Source: Tritonibacter mobilis
GTDB taxonomy: Bacteria; Pseudomonadota; Alphaproteobacteria; Rhodobacterales; Rhodobacteraceae
DNA: 64,000 nucleotides
Reading direction: 5' to 3'
Assembly: GCF_001681715.1 (NCBI RefSeq)
Contig: NZ_LNWY01000016.1
Location: 124,001 to 188,000, forward strand
The position numbers and the translations under genes were made by a program. The notes below the pieces were generated by a model. The model worked only from the letters and a program-made list of their open reading frames with translations, was not told the DNA's origin and did not search any database. Below are positions 28,312 to 36,965 of this stretch, piece by piece. Each line of letters starts with the position of its first letter. Position 1 is the first letter of the stretch.

Positions 28312-28325
28312 TTGACTCAGATCAA
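28312..28325. promoter_or_regulatory. FNR box between hemN and fnrL
   Basis: TTGAC-TCAG-ATCAA, one mismatch from the FNR consensus TTGAT-N4-ATCAA. It is centred 41.5 bases upstream of the hemN ATG (class II activator spacing) and 13 bases upstream of the chosen fnrL start, where it would lie downstream of an fnrL promoter and could mediate autorepression. Target genes and the protein's FNR-type helix make the assignment likely. Confidence 0.8.
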
Positions 28326-28337
28326 CCAGAGGCGCGT

Positions 28338-29078
28338 ATGTCCCTTGCCCAATTCCAGTCGATCGAGTGTGCGGATTGCCCAATTCGCCACCGCGCCGTG
28401 TGCGCCCGTTGTGATTCGGACGAGCTCGAGGCACTCGACGCAATTAAATTCTATCGCAGCTATGAGGCTGGGCAGACCGTGATCTGGTCTGGAGATCAGA
28501 TGAACTTTGTCGGTTCGGTGGTGTCTGGGATCGCGACGTTAACCCAGACGATGGAGGATGGGCGCACTCAGATGGTTGGGCTGTTGCTGCCGAGCGATTT
28601 TGTAGGCCGGCCCGGGCGCGATGGATCTGCGTATGATGTCGTTGCGACGACAGACGTTGTAATGTGTTGTTTTCGAAAAAAACCTTTTGAAGATTTGATG
28701 ACGCGAACACCTCATATCGCGCATCGATTGCTGGAAATGACACTGGATGAGCTTGATGCAGCGCGTGAGTGGATGTTGGTGCTCGGGCGTAAAACCGCGC
28801 GTGAGAAGATCGCCAGTCTCTTGTCGATTATCGCACGGCGCGATGCGTCGCTCAGTGTGGATGCCGCCAGTGGTGCTGTCAGCTTTGATCTGAAGCTGAC
28901 GCGTGAGGCGATGGCGGATTACCTGGGCTTGACCCTGGAAACCGTGAGCCGTCAAATCTCTGCACTTAGGAAGTCGGGTGTGATCGAACTGGAAGGAAAG
29001 CGGCACGTTACGGTGCCCGATATGCGGCGCCTGATCGAAGAGGCCGGAGATGATAGCGACGGCGGTGTGCTTGGTTAG
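28338..29078 (+). CDS. fnrL: FNR-type oxygen-sensing transcription regulator
   Basis: 246 residues from the ATG at 28338. The N-terminal cluster-binding cysteines are Cys11, Cys14, Cys22 and Cys25 (CADCPIRHRAVCARC), with a distal Cys pair at 110-111, giving an oxygen-labile [4Fe-4S] site. Then comes a cyclic-nucleotide-type beta roll, a dimer helix (about 130-150) and a Crp HTH with recognition sequence ETVSRQIS, whose E-SR residues read TTGAT in FNR proteins. Starts at 28260 or 28293 are possible, but the FNR box would then lie inside the coding region. It governs the box sites nearby. Confidence 0.94.
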   Translation: MSLAQFQSIECADCPIRHRAVCARCDSDELEALDAIKFYRSYEAGQTVIWSGDQMNFVGSVVSGIATLTQTMEDGRTQMVGLLLPSDFVGRPGRDGSAYDVVATTDVVMCCFRKKPFEDLMTRTPHIAHRLLEMTLDELDAAREWMLVLGRKTAREKIASLLSIIARRDASLSVDAASGAVSFDLKLTREAMADYLGLTLETVSRQISALRKSGVIELEGKRHVTVPDMRRLIEEAGDDSDGGVLG

Positions 29079-30288: not shown

Positions 30289-30302
30289 TTGATGCAGATC
30301 AA
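30289..30302. promoter_or_regulatory. FNR box upstream of ccoN
   Basis: TTGAT-GCAG-ATCAA, a perfect match to the FNR consensus. It lies 102 bases before the ccoN ATG and 111 bases from the divergent usp start. Class II spacing predicts a ccoN transcript start near 30337, with CATCAG at the -10 position (3 of 6 matches). Confidence 0.85.
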
Positions 30303-32765: not shown

Positions 32766-32963
32766 ATGGAAACCTATTCCTTGCTGCGACAGTTCGCTGA
32801 CAGCTGGATGCTTCTCTTTCTGTTCCTCTTTTTCATTGGTGTTGTGTTCTGGGCGTTTCGCCCCGGCTCCACCAAAACTTATGAGGACACAGCCAATATC
32901 CCCTTCCGCAACGCGGATAAGCCGGCGTCAGAGAGCGCCGCTCAACCGGAGGCCCAGAAATGA
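32766..32963 (+). CDS. ccoQ: cbb3 oxidase subunit CcoQ
   Basis: 65 residues: one membrane helix (about 15-32, [19 protein letters not shown]) followed by RPGS and a polar cytoplasmic tail. CcoQ stabilises the CcoNO/CcoP association. The stop overlaps the ccoP start by 4 bases. Confidence 0.95.
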
Positions 32964-33844
32964 GTGAGACGGGCAACAAAAACACCGTAAAGATCCAAGA
33001 AGGTGATCCAAACACCACCGGCCATGAGTGGGATGGGATCATGGAGTTCGACAACCCGATGCCGCGCTGGTGGCTTTGGGTGTTCTACGCCACCATCGTC
33101 TGGGGGATCGGCTATAGCATCGCCTATCCGGCCTGGCCGCTGGTGAGTGAGGCAACCTCTGGCATGTTGGGCTGGTCCTCGCGTGCCAAGGTTGAAGCTG
33201 AAATCGCTGCGGTCGAAACGGCAAATGCGCCGATCAACGCACAGTTGGAGGCTCTGGAACTTGCGGCCATTCCGGGTCACCCGGAACTTGAGGATTATGC
33301 GGTGTCTGCGGGTGCTGCGGTGTTCAAGACCTGGTGTGCGCAGTGTCACGGCTCCGGTGCGGCGGGTGCCAAAGGGTATCCGAACCTCTTGGACGATGAC
33401 TGGCTTTGGGGTGGTACAATGGAAGACATCCATACCACCGTGTCCTACGGTATCCGCAATGAGGAAAGCGACGATGCGCGCTTCTCTGCGATGCCTGCCT
33501 TTGGGCGTGATGGGCTGCTGGAAAAAGAGCAGGTCAGTCAGGTGGTCAACTATGTGATGTCCCTGTCGGATACGCCACAAGATGCAAGCCAAGTGGCGGC
33601 TGGTGCCGCTGTGTTTGAGGCGAACTGTGCCTCCTGTCATGGCGAAGACGCCTCGGGAGATATCTATCAGGGCGCTCCGAACCTCAAAGATGCCATCTGG
33701 CTCTATGGTGGCGATTACGAGACCGTCTATGAAACCGTTTGGAACTCTCGCTACGGGGTCATGCCGAACTGGGATACCCGCCTGAGTGAGGCCGAAATCC
33801 GCGCAGTGAGTGCTTATGTGCACCAGTTGGGTGGTGGCGAGTAA
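32960..33844 (+). CDS. ccoP: cbb3 oxidase dihaem cytochrome c subunit
   Basis: 294 residues. The N-terminal cytoplasmic segment [19 protein letters not shown] leads into one membrane helix (about 37-58), then two cytochrome c domains with haem sites CAQCH (126-130) and CASCH (223-227) and Met ligands in SAMPAFG and GVMPNWD. It accepts electrons from soluble or anchored cytochrome c. A terminator follows 25 bases later. Confidence 0.98.
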
Positions 33845-33868
33845 ATCGCGATCTGGCACCGAAAAAGC

Positions 33869-33896
33869 AGGCCGCTCCAAACGGGGCGGCCTTTTT
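33869..33896 (+). terminator. Rho-independent terminator of ccoNOQP
   Basis: Stem AGGCCGC / GCGGCCT around a 10-base loop, ending in TTTTT at 33892-33896. It closes the oxidase operon. Confidence 0.88.
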
Positions 33897-33927
33897 AGTT
33901 GGGGACAGTCAATTGGATGTGCAAGCG

Positions 33928-33959
33928 CGCCGGACCTGCGCAAAACAGCGGCGTTTTTT
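33928..33959 (+). terminator. Second weak terminator-like hairpin
   Basis: CGCCG / CGGCG with a 16-base loop followed by six T (33954-33959). A weaker backup to the ccoP terminator, and it isolates the downstream FNR box from read-through. Confidence 0.4.
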
Positions 33960-33978
33960 GGTGTGAACTTTGGTCGAG

Positions 33979-33992
33979 TTGATCTGCATCAA
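33979..33992. promoter_or_regulatory. Perfect FNR box in a gene-free stretch
   Basis: TTGAT-CTGC-ATCAA, a full consensus match. No protein gene begins within 500 bases downstream except the LysR gene at 34502, and a terminator intervenes. Class II spacing puts the transcript start at 34027 and the -10 at 34015-34020, where CAAAAT stands. Confidence 0.8.
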
Positions 33993-34014
33993 GGCTGCGC
34001 GAGCATGCAGATGA

Positions 34015-34020
34015 CAAAAT
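34015..34020 (+). promoter_or_regulatory. Predicted -10 of candidate FNR-activated RNA
   Basis: CAAAAT, 4 of 6 matches to TATAAT, at exactly the -12 to -7 position expected if the FNR box at 33979-33992 is centred at -41.5. Confidence 0.5.
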
Positions 34021-34026
34021 GGTATC

Positions 34027-34167
34027 GAGACGAAATTCAGGGCCATGGTTGGGAAGGCTATCGTGTCAGGCCTCGGATTTCGCCGTGCCCCGCTGGGTTG
34101 ACTAGCGGGTCTTTACGACGCCGGTTCCCTGCTTGTTCGCGCGTTTCCTGGGGAGCCGGCGTCTTTT
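34027..34167 (+). ncRNA. Candidate FNR-activated small RNA
   Basis: Predicted transcript of about 140 nt from the FNR-positioned start to a strong terminator. It contains a hairpin CCCGCT / AGCGGG at 34089-34109 followed by TCTTTA, which could end a shorter form of about 88 nt. The terminal 13-bp hairpin carries a T-run. An 18-codon frame (34045-34101) lies inside, with only a weak ribosome site, so a leader peptide or dual-function RNA cannot be excluded. It is flanked by the ccoP terminators and a convergent small gene. E. coli FnrS is the functional precedent; no sequence relation is claimed. Confidence 0.5.
34117..34167 (+). terminator. Terminator of candidate small RNA
   Basis: Arms GACGCCGGTTCCC (34117-34129) and GGGAGCCGGCGTC (34151-34163) pair over 13 bp with one G-U pair; 21-base loop; TTTT at 34164-34167 then CCTTCT. 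No plus-strand gene upstream other than the already terminated ccoP would need it. Confidence 0.75.
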
Positions 34168-34187
34168 CCTTCTGATCACGAACAAGG

Positions 34188-34391
34188 CTATTTGCAGGTC
34201 GCGATGCGCGGTTGACACGGAGATTGGCCATCGCGTGTCTCTTTCCGCGCCTTGATCAGGGCGGTCACGATGCGACGCCATATACCGGGGCGGACCTTGG
34301 GGCTGCGGTAGGCCACTGGCAATGGCCGCTGGGGAAGATCGCTGTGGCGGGTCGCGTTCAACAGGGTGCGGGCATAAATATCAACTAACAT
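34188..34391 (-). CDS. Small basic protein divergent from LysR gene
   Basis: 67 residues from the ATG at 34391, which has GAGGAGAG seven to eight bases upstream, a strong ribosome site. Rich in Arg, Lys and Pro, with a possible amphipathic helix (about 35-52, IWRRIVTALIKARKE); two Cys near the C-terminus (SPCQPRIATCK). I do not recognise a family. It is divergent from a LysR-type gene across 110 bases, which suggests it may be that regulator's target. It converges with the candidate small RNA. Confidence 0.55.
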   Translation of the reverse strand: MLVDIYARTLLNATRHSDLPQRPLPVAYRSPKVRPGIWRRIVTALIKARKETRDGQSPCQPRIATCK

Positions 34392-34482
34392 GTTCACTCT
34401 CCTCGGCATGTGATCCACACGCTGGATCTGTGCTCATGCTTGCCTGAATTCGTGTTTTATGCGAGTCAGGAAGAAATCTAAC

Positions 34483-34501: not shown

Positions 34502-35386
34502 ATGAACTGGCGTGATATGCCCTCAATGGCGGCCCTTCGGGCTTTTTCGGTTTTTTCTGAAACCGGGAACCTGCAACAAGCGGGCGCGCAGCTGAACGTC
34601 AGTCACGCAGCAATCAGTCAGCAATTGCGCCAGCTTGAGGCCCATATGGGAGTGCCGCTCTTGGACCGGTCAGGTCGCGCATTGCAACTGACGCCGGAAG
34701 GCGAGCAGCTTGCGCAGGCCTTGACGCTGGGGTTTGGTGCAATTCGCATGGCGGTACAGGATTTGACGACGCGCGGCGCAGGGCAGCCGCTCCATGTAAC
34801 CTGTACGCCGATGTTTGCCACCCACTGGCTGATGCCGCGTCTGGCCGGGTTTCGGCAGGCCTATCCTGAGGTGGATCTGGTGATTGATCCCACCGGGGAA
34901 GTGGTACAGCTGACGCCTGGTGGCATCGACGTTGCGCTGCGGTACGGAAGCGGCGCTTGGCCCGGTCTTGAGGCCGAGATGCTGCTGGCGTCGCCTATGG
35001 TGGTGGTGGCAGCCCCTGGCCTTTTGGACCAGCGAGCGGTGAAACAGCCGGAGGACCTGCTTGACTTGCCGTGGCTGGAGGAAATCGGCACCAATGAAGC
35101 CTCTGTCTGGCTCCGCTCCCGCGGGGTGGAAGACAGCCTTAAAGCAGGGCGAGTCGTTTTGCCCGGCAACCTCTTGATGGAGGCCTTGCGGGCGGGGCAG
35201 GGGGTTGCGGTCTCGGTGCGCGAATTCGTCGCGCCGGATGTTGCCGCAGGGCGTCTGACCGAGCTTTTTTGTGAAGAACAAGGGCGTGGATACCATATTG
35301 TCCATCGTCCCGGTGTGCTGCGCCCCGGTGCGCGGCATTTCGTCAACTGGCTGCGCCGAGAGCGCGGATCTACCCCCTTGATCTGA
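34502..35386 (+). CDS. LysR-type transcription regulator, GcvA-like
   Basis: 294 residues. N-terminal winged HTH (FSETGNLQQAGAQLNVSHAAISQQLRQLE) and a type 2 periplasmic-binding effector domain with the GcvA-subgroup pattern VTCTPMFATHWLMPRLAGF and DVALRYGSGAW. The effector is unknown. It sits between ccoP and ccoG, interrupting the usual adjacency of ccoNOQP and ccoGHIS. No Shine-Dalgarno site is visible because the inverted repeat directly abuts the ATG. Confidence 0.92.
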   Translation: MNWRDMPSMAALRAFSVFSETGNLQQAGAQLNVSHAAISQQLRQLEAHMGVPLLDRSGRALQLTPEGEQLAQALTLGFGAIRMAVQDLTTRGAGQPLHVTCTPMFATHWLMPRLAGFRQAYPEVDLVIDPTGEVVQLTPGGIDVALRYGSGAWPGLEAEMLLASPMVVVAAPGLLDQRAVKQPEDLLDLPWLEEIGTNEASVWLRSRGVEDSLKAGRVVLPGNLLMEALRAGQGVAVSVREFVAPDVAAGRLTELFCEEQGRGYHIVHRPGVLRPGARHFVNWLRRERGSTPLI

Positions 35387-35458: not shown

Positions 35459-35472
35459 TTGATCCACGTCAA
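35459..35472. promoter_or_regulatory. FNR box upstream of ccoG
   Basis: TTGAT-CCAC-GTCAA, one mismatch from the FNR consensus, 62 bases before the ccoG start. Class II spacing predicts a start near 35507, although the -10 there (GAGAAC) is poor. Confidence 0.75.
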
Positions 35473-35534: not shown

Positions 35535-36965
35535 TTGAGCGATTCGAGCCAAGCCCCCAGCCTTTACGCCGCAAGGGAGCCCATCTTTCCCCGCCGAGTC
35601 TCGGGAAAGTTCCGCACTCTCAAATGGGTGATCATGGCGGTTACCTTGGGCATCTACTACCTGCTGCCTTGGATCCGTTGGGACCGTGGGCCAGAACTGC
35701 CGGATCAGGCGGTGTTGCTCGATCTTGCCGGGCGACGGTTTTATTTCTTCTGGATTGAGATCTGGCCGCATGAATTCTATTTCGTCGCGGGCCTGTTGAT
35801 CATGGCGGGCCTTGGCCTGTTTCTGTTCACCTCGGCGTTGGGGCGGGTCTGGTGCGGCTATGCTTGCCCGCAGACTGTCTGGACTGATCTTTTCATTCTG
35901 GTTGAGCGCTGGATCGAGGGGGACCGCAACGCGCGCCTGCGCCTGCACCGTCAGAAAAAATGGGATTTCAAAAAAGCGCGCCTGCGGATGACCAAATGGG
36001 TGGCCTGGCTTTTGATTGGCCTGGCAACCGGTGGGGCATGGGTGTTCTACTTTGCCGATGCACCAACCCTGCTGCATGATCTGGTGACAGGTCAGGCACA
36101 CCCGGTGGCGTACACCACAATGGCGATCCTGACCTTCACGACCTTCTTCTTCGGCGGCTTTGCCCGCGAACAGATCTGTATCTATGCTTGCCCGTGGCCG
36201 CGTATTCAGGCGGCGATGATGGATGAGGATACGCTGACCGTCGGGTATCGCGATTGGCGCGGCGAGCCGCGTGGCAAGCACCGGAAATCGGCCGATGCGG
36301 ATCAAAAGGGCGATTGTATCGACTGCATGGCCTGTGTGAACGTCTGTCCCATGGGGATCGATATTCGCAAGGGCCAACAGATGGAGTGCATCACCTGTGC
36401 GCTTTGTATTGATGCCTGCGATGACATCATGGCCAAAGTGGGCAAGCCACGCGGGCTCATTGATTATATGGCGCTGTCGGATGAAACCAATGAGCGTGCG
36501 GGCAAACCACCGCGCCCGGTCTGGAAGCACATCCTGCGCCCGCGCACGATTATGTACACGACGCTTTGGGGTGGTGTGGGGCTGGCGCTTGTGTTCGCAC
36601 TCTTCATCCGTGCAGACATCAATATGACTGTAGCGCCGGTGCGGAACCCGACCTATGTCACGCTCTCGGACGGAACCATTCGCAACACCTATGATGTGCG
36701 ACTGTCAAACAAACACGGTGAGCCGCGACTGTTTGAGCTGTCGATTGTCGGTGATCCGGCGCTCTCTGTCTCGCTCGAGGGGGAAGAAAGTGTTACGGTT
36801 CAAGTCCCTGCTGACAGCGCAAGCCTGCAACGGGTCTATATCGCCGCGCCGCGTGGGAGTGCTCCCGCGGAAGCCGAGAACACCGGGCTGCGGATTTGGG
36901 TCGAAGATCTCACATCGGGCGAGCGTGCTTACCGCGACACCACCTTCAACGGACGGGGGAATTGA
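35535..36965 (+). CDS. ccoG: cbb3 oxidase accessory ferredoxin-like protein CcoG
   Basis: 476 residues from a TTG start with GGAG seven bases before it; no ATG precedes the conserved N-terminus. Polytopic iron-sulfur membrane protein (RdxA/FixG). CPQTVW and ACPWPRIQ elements; two [4Fe-4S] ferredoxin motifs, CIDCMACVNVCP and CITCALCIDAC; a C-terminal periplasmic Ig-like domain. CcoG reduces Cu(II) to Cu(I) for CuB insertion. First gene of ccoGHIS. Confidence 0.96.
   Translation: MSDSSQAPSLYAAREPIFPRRVSGKFRTLKWVIMAVTLGIYYLLPWIRWDRGPELPDQAVLLDLAGRRFYFFWIEIWPHEFYFVAGLLIMAGLGLFLFTSALGRVWCGYACPQTVWTDLFILVERWIEGDRNARLRLHRQKKWDFKKARLRMTKWVAWLLIGLATGGAWVFYFADAPTLLHDLVTGQAHPVAYTTMAILTFTTFFFGGFAREQICIYACPWPRIQAAMMDEDTLTVGYRDWRGEPRGKHRKSADADQKGDCIDCMACVNVCPMGIDIRKGQQMECITCALCIDACDDIMAKVGKPRGLIDYMALSDETNERAGKPPRPVWKHILRPRTIMYTTLWGGVGLALVFALFIRADINMTVAPVRNPTYVTLSDGTIRNTYDVRLSNKHGEPRLFELSIVGDPALSVSLEGEESVTVQVPADSASLQRVYIAAPRGSAPAEAENTGLRIWVEDLTSGERAYRDTTFNGRGN

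Follow-up and report, generated by a model that had tools for sequence, protein, structure and literature searches.

The window, which is the whole 64,000-nt stretch of DNA that was analyzed, contains a candidate small RNA between the ccoNOQP operon and a LysR-family gene, and all features described here lie on the forward strand unless stated otherwise. Approximately 5 kb to the upstream side lies fnrL (28338-29078), which encodes the predicted activator and matches the FnrL equivalog model of NCBIfam (NF045989) with 455 bits against a cut-off of 300. Its translation features an N-terminus with CADC...CARC cysteines, which we take to be the ligands of the Fe-S cluster. An FNR box, TTGACTCAGATCAA, is found at 28312-28325, immediately 5' of the fnrL start at 28338, which suggests that fnrL may be autoregulated. 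The ccoN promoter contains a perfect TTGATN4ATCAA box (30289-30302), and boxes were found 5' of ccoN in all 52 relatives in which ccoN was visible. The final gene of the operon, ccoP (32960-33844; TIGR00782, 399 bits, cut-off 180), is followed by a terminator (33869-33897) that comprises a 10-pair stem (33869-33892) and a T run, with a folding energy of -21.1 kcal/mol for 33860-33900, and then by a second, weaker hairpin with a T run at approximately 33927-33954. An earlier note on this DNA had described ccoNOQP as already terminated, with a second T-run hairpin behind it, and both features are indeed present between the end of ccoP and the next FNR box.

Downstream of the candidate RNA, a LysR-family gene (34502-35386) with PF00126 and PF03466 domains occupies the position of hvrB, a name that is given from position only; its top NCBIfam model is GcvA, with a score under the cut-off of that model. 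The gap that separates the RNA from the LysR gene contains a minus-strand frame of 76 codons (34188-34418), for which four close relatives have matches of 41-64% identity in the equivalent place. This frame matched no family in Pfam or NCBIfam. Further downstream, ccoG (35535-36965) has a promoter of its own with an FNR box at 35459-35472.

A predicted FNR-type promoter behind ccoP

The promoter of the candidate small RNA features a perfect FNR box, TTGATCTGCATCAA, at 33979-33992. Perfect TTGATN4ATCAA boxes occur twice in the 64-kb window, at 30289 before ccoN and at 33979, as opposed to 0.05 expected by chance. An extended -10 element, TG-A-CAAAAT, follows at 34012-34020: with a predicted transcription start at 34027, the CAAAAT hexamer (34015-34020) spans -12 to -7, the box is centered at -41.5 as in class II promoters, and the TG at 34012-34013 provides the extension. 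The box and the hexamer at class II spacing had both been claimed in the earlier note, and they stand where it placed them, with the TG as an addition. Among the matches listed, 64 loci have a box upstream of the corresponding hairpin (boxed loci), and in these the score for a TATAAT-like hexamer with a preceding TG peaked 23 nt past the box with a mean of 3.3, as compared to 0.7-1.9 at the remaining 29 offsets, which indicates the same class II spacing as in the window. Individual positions are less strict: among the matches listed, A at -11 and G at -14 were found in 71% and 73%, respectively, of 56 boxed loci, and A at -11 together with T at -7 in just 27 of 64.

The protein that uses the box would most plausibly be FnrL, which is encoded beside the locus, and a like box precedes ccoN, which the excerpts of PMC4634722 report to be targeted directly by FnrL in both R. 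capsulatus and R. sphaeroides; the same excerpts describe ccoGHIS of R. capsulatus as repressed by FnrL. We consider it improbable that the box is mainly used by another Crp/Fnr protein of the Dnr or CrpK type, with nitric oxide or something else as the signal, even though such paralogues share the motif and, among the PF13545 matches of the window's genome, the top five, FnrL included, read as full-length Crp/Fnr-type proteins. According to the excerpts of PMC4263372, CrpK but not FnrL occupied the R. sphaeroides ChIP peak assigned to rdxBHIS (the ccoG homologue), which suggests that in some species a paralogue may be the protein that uses the box.

The predicted RNA and its terminal hairpin

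For the predicted RNA (34027-34170), the computed fold consists of three hairpins followed by TTTT, with a minimum free energy of -64.4 kcal/mol (z = -2.42), and 5 of 200 dinucleotide shuffles folded as well or better. Hairpin 1 (34031-34082) is kept in close relatives and overlaps an 18-codon frame, and hairpin 2 (34089-34109) is the mid hairpin at which the earlier note had allowed for a shorter form of the RNA. Such a form is unlikely, because the T run of hairpin 2 is lost in close relatives even though the stem is kept. The terminator hairpin (34117-34167) comprises a stem at 34117-34163 and four T residues, in agreement with the terminal hairpin that had been proposed approximately 140 nt past the predicted start. 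Over the first two thirds of the RNA, sequence conservation extends to the closest relatives only. Among the matches listed, the predicted RNAs of the 64 boxed loci are 77-164 nt in length, with a median of 124 nt, so that the transcript is predicted to be short, to have its own terminator and to lack a conserved open reading frame, as for an FNR-activated small RNA. Taken together, we regard an RNA unit beneath the FNR box as very probably real.

The possibility of a dual-function RNA, which had also been raised, concerns the 18-codon frame at 34045-34101. The frame is present and begins with ATG, but this codon is lost in one relative (G004, which reads CCAAGG), the stop differs in other close relatives, and the frame is absent in more distant members of the genus. 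We thus consider it highly improbable that the transcript encodes an 18-codon peptide, either as its sole product or in a dual-function form.

We evaluated conservation with a DNA search and with a covariance model, R1, of the terminator hairpin. Using 33900-34185 as the query, matches were found in 11 of 41 genomes, which include the genome of the window and one (G017) in which the match covers the sequence before the box only. R1, which was built from 72 sequences, scores 66.7 bits (E = 3.6e-14) for the terminator hairpin in its own genome and detected the hairpin in 13 of the 18 genus members, counting the window's own genome, and each of these 13 contains an FNR box 133-156 nt 5' of the loop motif; the five genomes of the genus that showed no R1 match include one that is 67% complete. 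At the level of the family, the hairpin was found in 113 of 248 genera, which is close to half of those sampled, and not in the other 135. The earlier note had held that its proposal would fall if box, -10 element and terminator were not conserved in related genomes, and all three are conserved in such genomes. CcoP scored above its cut-off in 225 of the 248 family genomes, and none of the other 23 contains the hairpin.

Among 40 aligned sequences, 15 of 18 stem pairs showed changes on both sides, with a covariation score of 0.50 as opposed to 0.21 for shuffled and at most 0.13 for slid alignments, although the alignment was fitted to the model and is biased toward it. The loop contains a core, TGTTCGCGCGTTTCCTG (34134-34150), that is a candidate seed or ligand site. 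This core is near invariant in the 72-sequence set, which was picked by exact motif and is invariant by that selection, and it is also near invariant over the 40-sequence set, where every sequence has CTGTTCGCG and the 3' side of the loop (TTTCCT) differs among them. The loop pattern TGTTYGYGCGTTTCCYG occurs in 67 of 248 family genera, as compared to 1 of 248 for a reversed control pattern. In the genus of the window, the loop variant is TTGTTCGCG or TTGTTTG, and the core is looser in the weakest R1 matches, with an altered core in two of the eight weakest (L360 and L365).

The terminator hairpin fits the published description of HRC-8-4 in every comparable point. In the excerpts of Brewer et al. 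(2021, PMC8632094), HRC-8-4 is described from 160 representatives, all within Rhodobacterales, as a terminator stem with a conserved tip that lies between ccoNOQP and ccoGHIS and frequently before hvrB. Here, the hairpin has a strong stem and a U run, with the U run being weak in many relatives in which it directly follows ccoP; it lies between ccoNOQP and ccoGHIS, with the LysR gene, taken as hvrB, downstream; and it appears similarly restricted, as a class-wide R1 search of 289 genomes returned two matches that are both from the family of the window, in addition to the 113 family genera above. The assignment is made by published description, the published consensus being given as a figure. 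The discoverers speculated that HRC-8-4 is a riboswitch or a binding site for HvrB, and the motif section of their paper mentions no FNR boxes, separate promoter or small RNA. Relative to that section, and as far as our searches reach, the transcription context of HRC-8-4, its role as a 3' module and the switch between two arrangements described below are new.

Other known RNAs resemble the candidate in logic or in setting. FnrS of E. coli is FNR-activated, non-coding and made without oxygen (excerpts of PMC8139620 and PMC4263372), as is predicted for the RNA here, and by analogy the candidate RNA fits FnrS-like logic, with no sequence relation being claimed. PcrZ of R. sphaeroides, a related genus, is a low-oxygen small RNA of 136 nt that is influenced by FnrL and for which PrrA is the likely direct activator (excerpts of PMC6238624 and PMC8139620); its 5' end at 2,565,820 of chromosome 1 and the promoter peak of ccoNOQP at 2,440,200 are approximately 125 kb apart, and identity with PcrZ was rejected by position. 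No Rfam family reached its gathering score within the window, and a match to mir-128 at lax thresholds (18 bits, cut-off 49) was taken as chance. In a literature search that covered mainly the main texts of open papers, we found none that joins HRC-8-4 or a ccoP-adjacent RNA to FNR; the name HRC-8-4 itself appears in a single paper among those searched, and the excerpts of PMC5107571, PMC4809877, PMC5398030, PMC6686037, PMC8625941 and PMC9603517 contain nothing on this RNA.

Two arrangements of the hairpin

Among the matches listed, the loop motif has 158 places in loci L001-L159 (with duplicate L023 dropped), of which 136 have ccoP, ccoG or a window-like LysR gene in the locus and 22 do not. 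Eighty of the 136 lack an FNR box 40-260 nt upstream, and 78 of these lie 49-103 nt behind ccoP (type A); the two exceptions are a second tandem copy, 341 nt from ccoP, and one place next to the end of a contig. An FNR box lies 85-170 nt upstream of the remaining 56 (type B), with the end of ccoP 190-5872 nt away in 47 and not visible in nine. As a test set, we used 48 genomes that were matched by R1 and missed by the exact pattern, including the eight weakest matches, and all 48 fit the same division: 39 are type A, with no box and ccoP 50-88 nt away, and nine are type B, with ccoP at a distance of 200-1765 nt and a box that precedes the hairpin by 83-150 nt. Combined, there are 184 loci with cco or LysR neighbors among the matches listed; 119 lack a box, 117 of which lie 49-103 nt behind ccoP, and all 65 detached loci, defined as at least 190 nt from ccoP or with no ccoP end seen, have a box 83-170 nt upstream.

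An FNR box was present within 300 nt before ccoN in all 34 type A and all 18 type B loci with ccoN visible, which together with the separate box of type B places the hairpin RNA behind an FNR box in both designs, where visible. Consistent with a separate unit, 42 of 55 type B loci among the matches listed have a terminator-like site within 130 nt after ccoP, as compared to a mean of 1.8 in mononucleotide shuffles. At least four T residues within eight followed 34 of 48 type B hairpins and 28 of 64 type A hairpins. If processed from the end of its mRNA, a type A RNA would resemble NarS, a small RNA from the 3' end of the FNR- and NarL-controlled narK mRNA (excerpts of PMC8139620), although NarS is enterobacterial and unrelated. 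We also examined CcoP trees of 154 of 176 loci, which remained after the removal of duplicate rows, of a tandem copy and of loci whose ccoP could not be used. Being detached and being boxed coincided in 154 of 154 loci, with at least 22-23 state changes, and all supported independent pairs agreed (12 of 12 with FastTree; 10 of 10 with IQ-TREE in quick mode with no mixture).

Six of the 22 places that lack neighbors match R1 at E of at most 0.001, with L039 and L012 matching well. In G042 (L039 1296-1530), the order is the end of fnrL, usp, an FNR box, the hairpin and ccoI, with gene names given by resemblance of translations; the ccoNOQP-ccoG block is gone from between usp and ccoI, and ccoN lies 1.6 Mb away on the same contig. 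This hairpin has no U run, and a -10-like TATTAA stands at the class II offset. L012 (1476-1544), from genome G252, contains a 37-bit hairpin match with neither ccoP or other cco genes nor an FNR box near, and the same genome has a second, better match elsewhere. Three tandem two-hairpin units with the HRC-8-4 loop, 91-92 nt apart, lie behind ccoP on the minus strand in G219 (L358, approximately 1442-1647), and L064 has a second hairpin copy 286 nt from the first. On one contig of Shimia thalassica (L063 and L080), one hairpin lies directly behind ccoP with no box and another, boxed, lies before ccoG; a comparable arrangement is possible in G133, where a second, weak match follows ccoP.

These arrangements bear on whether HRC-8-4 is a terminator-embedded riboswitch or HvrB site that governs read-through into hvrB or ccoG. 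In many loci, the hairpin does precede a co-directional LysR gene or ccoG, its conserved loop caps a terminator stem as described in the excerpts of PMC8632094, and in G042 it precedes ccoI with no second FNR box and no U run, where it may serve as a leader of that gene, which is downstream on the same strand. However, those excerpts state that hvrB, if present, is always immediately downstream of HRC-8-4, whereas 8 of 62 LysR-bearing loci among the matches listed have a LysR gene on the upstream side of the hairpin, with the caveat that these eight share 46-51% identity with the LysR protein of the window and may represent another gene. Two further loci with an upstream LysR gene (L227 and L366) occur in the later set, and the remaining 74 of the 136 loci among the matches listed, some of which are short, showed no LysR gene. 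Among the matches listed, 98 of 101 ccoG-bearing loci give ccoG an FNR-like box of its own (TTGAYN4RTCAR) at a distance of at most 160 nt. For LysR-less loci with a long gap, of which 36 qualified and 30 gave a frame, an ORF heuristic placed the nearest long downstream frame on the opposite strand in 14 of 30; five of the 14 were compared with Pfam and all belong to known families (DUF2270 in three, a methyltransferase and an arylsulfotransferase), and at least two of the remaining ones look spurious (L078 and L253). The window itself has its minus-strand frame between hairpin and LysR gene. The hairpin therefore does not occupy the 5' UTR of hvrB or ccoG as a family-wide rule, and we consider this kind of read-through control quite improbable as an account of HRC-8-4.

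Proposed function, target searches and significance

Based on these findings, we propose that the window contains a separate transcription unit that would produce a non-coding RNA of approximately 140 nt (34027-34167) at low oxygen. FnrL would bind at -41.5 and activate transcription while its Fe-S cluster is intact, and the RNA would end at the HRC-8-4 hairpin. Coupling to FNR would be reached by one of two routes: in type A, the FNR-driven ccoNOQP mRNA would carry the hairpin as its 3' UTR, and in type B, as in the window, a hairpin detached from ccoP would have its own FNR promoter. That the coupling is kept by either route suggests selection on the RNA itself and a role separate from that of the oxidase mRNA, and the repeated re-coupling to FNR together with the conserved loop points to function as a small regulatory RNA. 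At low oxygen, the conserved loop CCUGUUCGCGCGUUU would act by binding to other RNAs as targets, a protein being the less likely partner. Taken as a whole, this statement, in which a low-oxygen, FnrL-activated and separately transcribed non-coding RNA acts as a small regulatory RNA through its conserved loop, is in our judgment probably correct. Points that speak against it are the narrow conservation of the 5' part, the genomes of the genus and genera of the family with no match, the altered loops of L360 and L365, the CrpK-only peak at rdxBHIS, the poor U tract of many type A hairpins, the isolated hairpin of L012 and the outcome of the target searches.

No pairing target emerged from the cis genes or from ctaC, and pattern searches did not stand out from background. 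In the genome of the window, no site other than the locus itself is perfectly complementary to the loop, complements with at most three mismatches numbered 35 and 35 as compared to 44 and 52 for the control, and background dominates among loop complements near ATG codons. Start regions in cis scored above their own shuffled mean in 27 of 56 loci for ccoN, 82 of 139 for ccoG, 43 of 73 for LysR and 63 of 130 for ccoP; the excess for ccoG and LysR is small and not convincing. Start regions of ctaC gave no pairing signal, and two genomes without the hairpin (G010 and G011) scored at least as high as most hairpin-bearing genomes. Apart from the loop, CCTCCC was found in the 5' parts of 9 of 59 type B RNAs, as compared to 2.35 in shuffled sequences (largest value, 6; eight motifs tried), sometimes in the loop of the first hairpin, where it resembles an anti-Shine-Dalgarno seed. 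CCTCC and CTCCC showed no enrichment in type A, and CCTCC is missing from the RNA of the window.

The negative searches are compatible with a hairpin that has no pairing targets and serves as a 3'-end stabilizer or terminator through a loop-binding protein, or as a titrator of such a protein. The hairpin alone is widely conserved, and it forms the 3' end of the RNA in both architectures, as would be expected of such an element. However, a pure stabilizer of mRNA would need no FNR promoter of its own, yet every detached locus among the matches listed has a box (65 of 65). We consider this alternative unlikely, with the qualification that the loop may titrate a protein.

With the small regulatory RNA as our preferred reading, the orphan motif HRC-8-4 gains a testable role as an FNR-coupled small RNA, and the riboswitch idea fits its surroundings poorly. 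The family Rhodobacteraceae includes many marine, soil and phototrophic bacteria, in which mainly protein regulators are known for the switch to low oxygen. More tentatively, HRC-8-4 could mark a family-wide low-oxygen small RNA of Rhodobacteraceae that has retained FNR control through many switches between the two routes, acts in trans through one apical loop of approximately 15 nt on the hairpin that also terminates it and occurs in tandem in some species, a possibility under which it would supply the FnrL regulon with its missing RNA arm. If the proposal is true, it would add a post-transcriptional arm linked to the cbb3 oxidase, and the swaps between 3' UTR and own promoter would represent a record of 3'-UTR RNAs becoming independent genes, or the reverse.
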